Of a stretch of 64,000 nucleotides of DNA, positions 44,221-50,671 are shown in pieces. The DNA is from Halorubrum sp. 48-1-W. GTDB taxonomy: Archaea > Halobacteriota > Halobacteria > Halobacteriales > Haloferacaceae. The position numbers were made by a program, and so were the translations under genes. The stretch is taken from positions 62,001 to 126,000 of the forward strand of contig NZ_QMIM01000012.1 of the NCBI RefSeq assembly GCF_003287355.1, in the 5' to 3' direction. How positions within the stretch are numbered: position 1 is the stretch's first letter; each line of letters opens with the position of its first letter. The notes under the pieces were generated by a model. It was not told the origin of the DNA. It ran no database searches and was given only the letters and a program-made list of their open reading frames with translations.

Positions 44221-45195
44221 ATGAGCGACAACGTTCGAACCTACACGACGGAACACGCCGACGACGAACGAGAGAGCGAGTCGGCGGCGGACGAGGAACT
44301 ACGCTGCCCCGAGTGCGACGGCCAACTCGCTACCGACACCGAACACGGCGAGACGGTGTGTGCTGACTGCGGGCTCGTCGTCGAGGAGGACGAGATCGAC
44401 CGCGGGCCGGAGTGGCGCGCGTTCGACTCCCGCGAGAAGGACCAGAAGTCCCGCGTGGGCGCGCCCACGACGAACATGATGCACGACAAGGGGCTGTCGA
44501 CCAACATCGGCTGGCAGGACAAGGACGCGTACGGCAAGTCCCTCTCGAGCCGCCAGCGCGAGAAGATGCAGCGACTCCGCACCTGGAACGAGCGGTTCCG
44601 GACGCGCGACTCGAAGGAGCGCAACCTGAAGCAGGCGCTCGGCGAGATCGATCGGATGGCCTCGGCGCTCGGACTCCCGGACAACGTCCGCGAGACCGCC
44701 TCCGTCATCTACCGCCGCGCGCTCGACGAGGACCTGCTTCCCGGCAGGTCCATCGAGGGCGTCGCGACCGCCTCGCTGTACGCCGCTGCCCGGCAGGCCG
44801 GGACTCCCCGGAGCCTCGAGGAGATCGCGGGCGTCTCTCGTGTGGAAAAAGACGAGATCGCCCGGACGTACCGCTACGTCGTCCGTGAACTCAAACTGGA
44901 GATCCGACCGGCCGACCCGGGGAGTTACGTGCCGCGGTTCGCCTCCGATCTCGGTCTCTCGGACGAGTCGGAGCGTCGTGCCCGACGGCTCCTCGACACC
45001 GCGAAATCCCAGGGGATCCACAGCGGGAAGTCGCCGGTCGGGCTCGCGGCTGCCGCCGTCTATGCCGCCGCCCTCCTCACCAACGAGAAGGTGACCCAGA
45101 GCGAGGTGAGCGAGGTCGCGAACATCTCCGAGGTCACCATCCGCAACCGCTACCACGAACTGCTCGAGGCCGAGGACAGCATCGCCGTCAACTAG
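44221..45195 (+). CDS. tfb: Transcription initiation factor IIB (TFB)
   Basis: 324 residues. Zinc ribbon C29/C32 (CPEC) and C47/C50 (CADC); B-finger/linker GPEWRAFDSREKDQKSRVGAPTT; two cyclin repeats (about 125-215 and 220-318) with SLYAAARQAGTPRSLEEIAGVSRVEKDEI and LAAAAVYAAALLTNEKVTQSEVSEVANISEVTIRNRYHEL. It bridges TBP-bound TATA DNA and RNA polymerase. Haloarchaea carry several TFBs; which one this is cannot be told. A TBP-like half protein lies 5 kb downstream. Confidence 0.96.
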   Translation: MSDNVRTYTTEHADDERESESAADEELRCPECDGQLATDTEHGETVCADCGLVVEEDEIDRGPEWRAFDSREKDQKSRVGAPTTNMMHDKGLSTNIGWQDKDAYGKSLSSRQREKMQRLRTWNERFRTRDSKERNLKQALGEIDRMASALGLPDNVRETASVIYRRALDEDLLPGRSIEGVATASLYAAARQAGTPRSLEEIAGVSRVEKDEIARTYRYVVRELKLEIRPADPGSYVPRFASDLGLSDESERRARRLLDTAKSQGIHSGKSPVGLAAAAVYAAALLTNEKVTQSEVSEVANISEVTIRNRYHELLEAEDSIAVN

Positions 45196-48303: not shown

Positions 48304-48609
48304 TCAGTTCTCGACTTCGGCGGCGTCGTCGATCCGCATCGAGCCGAGCTTCTGGACCGTGTGATCGAGCTTCTCGTCGAGTTCGTCGACGAACTCGTGG
48401 GTGCGCTCCGTCGTTATCGCGCCCTGACTGGAGGGTTCGATGAGGTTCTCCTCCTCGAGGACGCGAAGCGAATACCGAACCTTGTGGTGGGGGTAGCCCG
48501 TCTCGTTGGACATCTTCACGATCCCGATCGGTTCGTTCTCGATGACCATCCGCAACACCTGCAGGTGCCGCTCCAGCATATCTACCTCTTTCTCGAGTCG
48601 ATCTATCAT
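48304..48609 (-). CDS. Small winged-helix DNA-binding protein
   Basis: 101 residues from ATG 48609. The start MIDRLEKEVDMLERHLQVLR, then NEPIGIVKMSNETGYPHHKVRYSLRVLEEENLIEPS is a winged HTH, with the recognition helix YPHHKVRYSLRVLEEENLI. The frame extends to 48690, but a palindromic TATA box (cttttaaaag, 48635-48644) about 30 nt upstream of ATG 48609 marks this as the leaderless start. It is widely conserved in haloarchaea as a regulator of unknown target. Confidence 0.85.
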   Translation of the reverse strand: MIDRLEKEVDMLERHLQVLRMVIENEPIGIVKMSNETGYPHHKVRYSLRVLEEENLIEPSSQGAITTERTHEFVDELDEKLDHTVQKLGSMRIDDAAEVEN

Positions 48610-48634
48610 GCCATATGTTAACTCGTCATGCCCC

Positions 48635-48644
48635 CTTTTAAAAG
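48635..48644 (-). promoter_or_regulatory. TATA box of the winged-helix gene
   Basis: cttttaaaag is its own reverse complement and lies 30 nt before the ATG at 48609 on the minus strand; this decides the start codon. Confidence 0.65.
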
Positions 48645-48801
48645 TTGTTGTCGAGCTGGGGAGGGCGAATTCCGGCCTACGGTTTGACATGGGAGTAGTT
48701 AACGGTTCGGATCACGGAGGCGACAGCCGACGTCCTCACGTACGTTTTATCCGGGCGTTCGAGATCAGATCGTCACCAGCAGGGGGATCGCCGACGCCAG
48801 C

Positions 48802-49806
48802 TCACTGCCGTGACGCCCTCACCGCGTACAGGGATCCGTCTTCGCTCCCGACGTAGACTGCCCCCTCTACCACCGTCGGTGAGGACGAGATCCCGCCGTC
48901 GGTCTGGACGGTCCACCGTTCGGTACCAGCGGCCGCATCCACCGCGTACAGGTTCTCGTCGGCACTTCCGACGTATACGGTATCACGGACCACCGCAGGC
49001 GACGAGTGGATCCAACTCCCGGCTTCGAAGGTCCAGTGTACGGCACCGTCGTCGGTAGCCACCGCAGACAGGCGGCCGCCATCGTCCCCGACGTATACGG
49101 TGCCCGTTCCTATGGCTGGCGATGAATCGACCGCATCCCCGGTTTCGAAGCGCCACTGCTCGGTACCGATGGTTGCGTACACCGCGTATAGATACGACGT
49201 TCCGGTAGGTGAGTTGGTTCCGACGTAGACAGTCCCGTCAGCCACCGTCGGGGAGGCGACGTAGCCACCAGTTTCGAAGGCCCACCGCTCGTCACCAGTA
49301 GTAGCGTGTACCGCGTACAAGTTTTCGTCCCAGCTCCCGACGTAGACCGTCCCGTCCGTGACCACCGGCGAAGCTGAGATCTCTCCCCCGGTCTCGAACG
49401 TCCACGTCTCGGCCCCGGTAGCCGCATCCACTGCGTACAAATGTTCGTCCCAGCTCCCGATATAGACCGTCCCGTCTACCATCGCCGGCGAGGAATCGAT
49501 CCGGGACCCCGTCTCGAAGTTCCACCGCTCGGTGCCAGTGCTCGCGTCTACCGCATACAGGCTCGCGTCGACGCTCCCGACGTAGACCGTCCCGTCTCGC
49601 ACGGTTGGCGAACTCACCACTGGGGCGTCAGTTTCGAAACGCCACAGTGGCGCGCCGGTGGTCGTGTCTATCGCGTACAGGAATCCATCGTCACTTCCAA
49701 CGTAGACGGTCTCGTTCACCACCGTCGGCGAGGAAGCGATCGAGCTTCCGGTTTCGAAGGTCCAAAGCAGCTCCCCAGCATCCCCCTCAGATTGCTCTCG
49801 TTTCAT
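48802..49806 (-). CDS. Eight-repeat PQQ-type beta-propeller protein without a signal peptide
   Basis: 334 residues from ATG 49806. After 12 acidic residues come eight repeats of about 40 residues, each with W-x-F-E-T-G, S-S-P-x-V and T-V-Y-V-G-S-x-D-x-x-L-Y-A-V-D-A-x-T-G-x-E. This should fold as one eight-bladed propeller. There is no Tat or Sec signal, whereas most haloarchaeal PQQ-propellers are exported. No PQQ dehydrogenase residues are recognisable; it is probably a binding scaffold. The repeats are alike, as after recent duplication. Probably co-transcribed with the TBP-like gene upstream (90-bp gap). Confidence 0.85.
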   Translation of the reverse strand: MKREQSEGDAGELLWTFETGSSIASSPTVVNETVYVGSDDGFLYAIDTTTGAPLWRFETDAPVVSSPTVRDGTVYVGSVDASLYAVDASTGTERWNFETGSRIDSSPAMVDGTVYIGSWDEHLYAVDAATGAETWTFETGGEISASPVVTDGTVYVGSWDENLYAVHATTGDERWAFETGGYVASPTVADGTVYVGTNSPTGTSYLYAVYATIGTEQWRFETGDAVDSSPAIGTGTVYVGDDGGRLSAVATDDGAVHWTFEAGSWIHSSPAVVRDTVYVGSADENLYAVDAAAGTERWTVQTDGGISSSPTVVEGAVYVGSEDGSLYAVRASRQ

Positions 49807-49896
49807 GTTCCGATCACGTGGATCCAGCGGCGAGGTGAGTTGGTTTCCGACCACGTCCGCCGATGCCGGATCGGCGAGATCCGGGCGTGGCAGACG

Positions 49897-50325
49897 TCAC
49901 GAGTCATCGTCGTAGCCCAGCGTCTCTACGGACGGAGGAGTCAACGAGAACGGGACGGTTCGTACGTTCGTAGAGATCTCCGGAGTGTGAGCGTCCACGA
50001 TCAATCCGAGATCGTCTAACGTATCGATCACGTTCGAGACTGCCGACCTCGCGTGTGTTTCCTCCGTCGCGTCGATCGAAAGGACGGTCCCATCTCCGGA
50101 GACGACAACCGTCGTCGGGAGATCGTCCGGCTGATACACGACACCGGGAAACGTCGCCTCATCGTACAGACAGTCCGATTCACCCAACGCGATCGCGACG
50201 GATTCGAGTGAGAACGCCTGATCGAACCTGGCATACGCTGTGGCGTCACCCTCGTAGAGATCGACGGGGAGATCGGCCACCTGAGCGCGGATCTCTTCCG
50301 GCGGGATCGTGTTCGTCGACATCAT
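49897..50325 (-). CDS. Single-repeat TBP-like protein
   Basis: 142 residues (ATG 50325 or 50322). Residues 35-111 align with one half-repeat of archaeal TBP: FSLESVAIALGESDCLYDEA, TFPGVVYQPDD (with the FPGLVY core and its DNA-kinking Phe), VVVSGDGTVLSIDAT (where TBP has LIFxSGKxVxTGAK) and ARSAVSNVIDTLDDLGLI (final helix). The second Phe and the Lys residues of the DNA face are lost, and there is no second repeat; N- and C-terminal extensions (1-34, 112-142) look disordered. The function is unknown. A minus-strand TATA (cgtttaatct, 50345-50354) sits at the leaderless distance. Confidence 0.72.
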   Translation of the reverse strand: MMSTNTIPPEEIRAQVADLPVDLYEGDATAYARFDQAFSLESVAIALGESDCLYDEATFPGVVYQPDDLPTTVVVSGDGTVLSIDATEETHARSAVSNVIDTLDDLGLIVDAHTPEISTNVRTVPFSLTPPSVETLGYDDDS

Positions 50326-50671
50326 CCGTGTGTGCTACCGGTCCAGATTAAACGTTATGATAACCGACACAATTCGAGGTCGAACCATCGAATATGTAAG
50401 AGAAAATGGGATTTCAGGAATAACGGATATTCAGAGAACGCAAGGGAGACGGGGAAACGAAATCAGCGATACGCACGGGTACGGCACGTTTCGAGTGGCG
50501 TCCACGCGTCGATGCTCGTTTTGTTGATCGATCGGAAGACCGCTCCGCCAGTGAGATGGCACGAACGACGATATCTGCCGACAGTGCGTACGGGATCCAT
50601 ACACGTTCGTGCCGTGATCGCGACGACGGACCGTAATCGGTTTTACCCCCCGGTTGGAAGGGAGGAGCGGT
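50326..50671. other. 346-bp low-GC intergenic region with possible gene remnant
   Basis: Between the divergent TBP-like gene and purA. The first 180 bp are clearly AT-richer than the genome. A plus-strand frame 50357-50527 (56 residues, MITDTIRGRTIEYVRENGIS ...) reads like the start of a DNA-binding protein but has few acidic residues and no promoter; it may be a remnant. The TATA box at 50638-50647 is the purA promoter; between 50530 and 50630 I see nothing. Confidence 0.6.
50638..50647 (+). promoter_or_regulatory. TATA box of purA
   Basis: cggttttacc is centred about 29 nt before ATG 50672, predicting a leaderless mRNA and supporting that start over ATG 50654. Confidence 0.65.

Follow-up and report, generated by a model that had tools for sequence, protein, structure and literature searches.

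The TATA-binding protein (TBP) is among the most conserved transcription factors and is normally a saddle of two lobes, of which the C-terminal one binds TFB. The window analyzed here, a stretch of 64,000 nucleotides from Halorubrum sp. 48-1-W, contains a gene for a 142-amino-acid protein (P0001) that comprises a single TBP lobe only. This raises the question of what half of a TBP is, where it came from, and what it could do without its other half.

A gene for a single TBP lobe

The Pfam TBP model PF00352 matched P0001 in one stretch, residues 29 to 105 (score 35.1 bits, cut-off 22.9 bits; E = 1.2e-8). In the NCBIfam TBP models, it was the C-terminal half (positions about 105 to 185) that matched residues 29 to 109, and comparison with PDB sequences returned archaeal TBPs, with E values down to 1.6e-9 and the best stretch in the TBP C-terminal lobe. 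An AlphaFold2 monomer model made with a 20-sequence alignment (mean pLDDT 84.3; pTM 0.80) has the strand and helix order of a TBP lobe, and a Foldseek search with this model gave TBPs as the best solved structures, the top one being the M. jannaschii TBP 2z8u (E = 2.9e-6). The sequence-only reading had described the protein as one TBP half-repeat and had proposed structure prediction and profile searches as checks; both give a TBP lobe. It had also noted the absence of a second repeat, and here, too, it was right: there is one Pfam stretch, and stops close the frame immediately before the first ATG and at 49897, leaving 145 amino acids, so that no second repeat is joined to the protein.

The same genome encodes four two-lobe TBPs, and no orphan N-terminal lobe that could supply the missing half was found in it. 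Two very divergent two-lobe TBPs occur in this genome (G000:C49:64570-65088 and G000:C4:5038-5553; L005 to L008), with N-lobes in which the FPG motif is lost or altered and C-lobes that are near canonical.

Because the first ATG is not kept in Halorubrum rubrum, which has GTT there, the gene probably starts at the second ATG, with a predicted coding region of 49897 to 50322. The TTTAAT hexamer upstream fits a leaderless haloarchaeal promoter and may act as one. The features of the locus are collected in Table 1.

Table 1. Features of the half-TBP locus (positions in the window)
Feature	Position	Strand	Evidence and remarks
Half-TBP gene	49897..50325	-	142 aa; PF00352, AlphaFold2, Foldseek, dN/dS 0.15 against the H. 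rubrum orthologue
Family-specific N-terminal extension, residues 1-27, outside the TBP lobe	50245..50325	-	Predicted helix 9-16 (AlphaFold2); conserved in the family alignment
TBP C-lobe-like domain, residues 28-108	50002..50244	-	Stirrup YDEATFPG 54-61; S for F305 at residue 76; Pfam, AlphaFold2, alignment
TATA-like hexamer TTTAAT	50347..50352	-	About 22-27 nt before the first ATG; TTTAA core conserved in H. rubrum (G127)
PQQ/BamB-like beta-propeller gene	48802..49854	-	350 aa; PF13360/PF13570; 42 nt downstream of the half-TBP gene
Insert with just the half-TBP and propeller genes	48724..50559		1.84 kb; blastn gap in L095, L096, L097
Small winged-helix-like protein, outside the insert	48304..48690	-	Present in 49/50 genomes of the genus

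The insert and its propeller gene

The HTH and purA regions on either side of this segment are separated by just about 35 to 45 bp in G116, G105, and G111, three other Halorubrum genomes, which identifies the segment as an insert. Its GC content is lower than that of its flanks, and synonymous divergence is 0.11 to 0.13 for the half-TBP and propeller genes versus 0.30 for purA and TFB. Neither a clear target duplication nor terminal inverted repeats were found at the insert edges. The small winged-helix-like protein beyond the insert seems to be an uncharacterised genus-core regulator. The nearby TFB and HTH genes gave no support for a functional link with the half-TBP, both being present in genomes without the insert; the TFB gene at 44221 to 45195, which had been taken as a hint of such a link, gives no sign of one because it is, like the other flanking genes, an ordinary conserved neighbor in Halorubrum genomes that lack a half-TBP.

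The propeller protein has no obvious signal peptide. The same arrangement of half-TBP and propeller genes, at 90% identity, is found in Halorubrum rubrum YC87 (G127), and the propeller gene is a probable operon partner of the half-TBP gene.

A haloarchaeal family probably derived from the TBP C-lobe

The protein had appeared to be an isolated oddity, and a single-protein search of genome contigs with P0001 did match the H. rubrum orthologue only (96% identical). Searches of haloarchaeal genomes, which had been suggested as a check, instead recovered 13 single-lobe TBP proteins: P0001 and those of G127, G097, G094, G108, G090, G086, G159, G358, G302, G454, G455, and G457. The searches covered 170 genomes with P0001 as the query, 391 with a family profile, 146 of a second haloarchaeal family, and 393 across the phylum, in overlapping sets. 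Among the 391 genomes, half-TBPs scored 104 to 203 bits against the family profile and ordinary TBPs scored up to 97.7 bits, so very divergent half-TBPs may be missed.

Outside the TBP lobe, the members share a helix region at the N terminus and, at the C terminus, the motif VP(V/F). No catalytic domain accompanies the TBP domain of P0001, and zinc ribbons are the only additions in some relatives, namely a double one at the C terminus in G090 and G086 and a weaker zinc-ribbon match in G159. In front of most of the genes, a TATA-like sequence lies so close to the start that a leader would have little or no space.

In a tree of 55 lobes, all 13 half-TBPs form one group (support 100/100) that excludes TBP lobes and is itself nested inside the group of haloarchaeal TBP C-lobes (97/98); the small number of columns and some long branches limit the finer branching. 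A two-residue insertion in helix H1 is common to half-TBPs and haloarchaeal C-lobes and is missing from nearly all other lobes. Because of this nesting and this insertion, the sequences indicate that the family most likely arose a single time, from a C-terminal lobe of haloarchaeal TBP, and the same two observations rule out an ancestral half-TBP. A viral origin was also rejected, P0001 being unmatched in phages, PHROGs, and viral contigs. A viral fold search gave one match below E = 0.001, to a 547-residue protein with 12% identity, and the other, weak matches included two-lobe TBPs of giant viruses. On plasmids, the single relative was a 28% match annotated as TBP.

Loss of the DNA face

In alignment with TBP, P0001 keeps the F of FPG, while the F of LLFGSGK is replaced by S, the K of SGK by T, the R of YR by Q, and the QN of strand S1 by GD. 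The protein contains four Arg and no Lys. The losses of the second DNA-kinking Phe (the F305 equivalent) and of the DNA-face Lys residues had both been recognized from the sequence, and the second proves more extensive than was claimed, since Lys is absent from the entire protein. Of the features that mark a TBP, P0001 has the Pfam similarity above the cut-off but lacks the complete intercalating Phe pair, the DNA-face Asn/Arg/Lys, the TFB-contact Glu pair, and a second lobe.

The 13 half-TBPs were compared with 21 TBP C-lobes. The strand S1 QN pair, the R after FPGLVY, and the K of GSGK are absent from every half-TBP, and the aligned core contains 1 to 4 Lys/Arg versus 2 to 11 in the C-lobes. 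In TBP, F305 (position C.L5.1) is the key DNA Phe, and E284 and E286 contact TFIIB/TFB (PMC7221094). The equivalent of F305 is kept in 8 of 13 half-TBPs and replaced by S in the four-member subclade of P0001 and by L in G086. The first intercalating Phe, equivalent to F288, is kept in all 13, which could reflect some surviving nucleic acid contact. The stirrup positions equivalent to E284 and E286 are both acidic in eight members and are Q and D in G159; in the P0001 subclade the first is D and the second A or S (Y-D-E-A/S), with D and A in P0001 itself. Within the family, the stirrup, strand S2, H1, and the S3-S4 turn are the most conserved parts, and H2 is poorly conserved; at H1 and the turn, conservation may reflect no more than what the fold requires.

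Since the DNA-face residues are lost across the family, canonical TATA binding is unlikely for any half-TBP, judging from these substitutions. Docking on TFB is plausible for most members; it is least supported for P0001 because its subclade has altered the TFB-contact loop. We lean, with considerable reservation, toward a half-TBP that is a DNA-blind protein-binding lobe and modulates transcription by docking either to the transcription machinery or to a dedicated partner. Family members retain the TBP-lobe fold together with H1 and the first intercalating Phe; such a lobe would no longer touch DNA as TBP does. Relatives with an acidic stirrup would dock on TFB, and P0001 would perhaps dock on a dedicated partner, for which the co-directional propeller is the first candidate, and the protein would act as a decoy or adaptor and not as a promoter-binding TBP.

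It is conceivable, although we consider it unlikely, that two copies instead pair through strand S1 to form a homodimeric saddle with a TBP-like groove that would bind nucleic acid or a protein mimicking DNA. TBP itself is a pseudodimer built from two lobes of this kind, strand S1 comes out intact in the structure prediction and has a conserved [ST]-[AT]-[GA]-[YF] motif, and the universal retention of F288 would suit such a groove. The loss of polar and basic DNA-face residues from all 13 proteins weighs against such a saddle, including a version that binds TATA, as do the low Lys/Arg content of the core and the loss of F305 in the subclade of P0001.

Genomic neighborhoods and selection

The relatives occupy varied neighborhoods. 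In G097 and G094 the half-TBP gene lies between aTrm56 and a divergent TFE gene. In G090 and G086 it adjoins uvrA, with sepF-like and PUA-domain genes nearby (uvrA and sepF were named from sequence). In G159 (L022/L075) its neighbors are a cassette of VWA, protein kinase, PP2C, and FHA/zinc-ribbon genes and a TbsP-like regulator; in G302 it follows a Cdc6-like ATPase gene. In G358, G108, G455, and G457 it is the last gene of an operon for Mre11, Rad50, NurA, an unknown protein, and HerA, directly downstream of HerA. In G454 it directly follows the Shango SngABC operon, after SngC, and precedes genes for HNH, Mre11, Rad50, and NurA.

The Mre11-Rad50-NurA-235aa-HerA operon of the four genomes (L070, L072, L082, and L083) is 93 to 99% identical at the DNA level in species of two families, and the slot between HerA and a PLD-domain gene in this mobile operon holds different genes in different genomes. 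The operon is likely a defense island. In G454 (L084:3587-18762), the Mre11-Rad50-NurA genes that come after Shango, the half-TBP, and the HNH endonuclease are a second set. In G436 (L119), a single 20-kb stretch contains Shango-like genes directly adjoining one HerA gene, along with a second Mre11-Rad50-NurA-HerA set.

These positions, next to HerA on its downstream side in four genomes and likewise next to SngC in a fifth, raise the prospect that half-TBPs are accessories of defense nuclease systems (Mre11-Rad50-NurA-HerA and Shango), for example as a loader, regulator, or inhibitor of HerA/NurA. The copies from the HerA and Shango contexts are only 59% identical, so the association does not stem from one recent transfer. 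Such a role nevertheless seems improbable. G484 and G201 have HerA relatives with 98% identity but no half-TBP beside them, with other genes in the slot and a short half-TBP remnant kept in G201, and two other Shango loci lack one as well; these cases rule out an obligate HerA or Shango partner. Because the slot in the nuclease island is exchangeable, the half-TBP is an accessory there. The P0001 locus, moreover, has no Mre11-Rad50-NurA-HerA or Shango neighbors, whereas five relatives lie in such operons. The half-TBP family is small and mobile and moves laterally among haloarchaea, with some members in antiviral-type gene islands.

A patchy distribution, the G201 remnant, and the loss of canonical binding residues are what would be expected of a functionless truncated TBP that rides, neutral or decaying, on mobile islands. 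This is very improbable given the signature of constraint. Between P0001 and the H. rubrum copy, dN/dS is 0.15 over 140 codons (Fisher P = 0.0004, with counts rounded from pS and pN); three other pairs give 0.22 to 0.24, and the distant pair G097-G094 gives 0.39. By this sequence comparison the gene is under purifying selection, and dN/dS together with family-wide length conservation is the ground for rejecting a pseudogene or truncated TBP. The extra N- and C-terminal motifs are also conserved across haloarchaeal families, and TATA-like sequences recur upstream.

Relation to known proteins and significance

Half-TBPs resemble the C-terminal lobe of archaeal TBP (PF00352) in fold, H1, stirrup region, FPG motif, and C-terminal LGL(I/L). 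They differ from TBP in having one lobe instead of two, in the loss of the DNA-face QN, R, and K, and in the additional N-terminal helix and C-terminal VP motif; P0001 has also lost F305 and the second TFB-contact Glu. Brindefalk et al. (2013, NAR 41:2832) reportedly described proteins with a single TBP domain in some archaea. As in these monopartite proteins, a single TBP domain makes up the whole protein; in the haloarchaeal half-TBPs this lobe is a secondary derivative of a TBP C-lobe. DNA glycosylases carry a single TBP-like lobe, and the TBP-like lobes of RNase HIII and DNA glycosylases are nucleic-acid-binding parts of enzymes. The lobe of RNase HIII is likewise single (PMC4132731). Unlike these enzymes, half-TBPs have no enzyme domain, and their phylogenetic neighbors are TBP itself. 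A literature search found no paper on single-lobe haloarchaeal TBPs; as far as could be checked, what is new is the family itself, together with its origin from the C-lobe, the disappearance of the DNA face in all of its members, and its occupation of exchangeable slots in defense islands.

A bolder version of the DNA-blind lobe, which we regard as rather unlikely, is that haloarchaea repeatedly use it as a plug-in decoy that tunes or silences accessory and defense islands, as a TBP-derived anti-initiation factor. With the TFB-side lobe kept and the DNA face dropped, half-TBPs amount to a natural separation-of-function experiment on a lone TBP lobe. They can show whether archaea regulate initiation with TBP decoys, and their place in exchangeable defense-island slots connects antiviral cargo genes with basal transcription factors.
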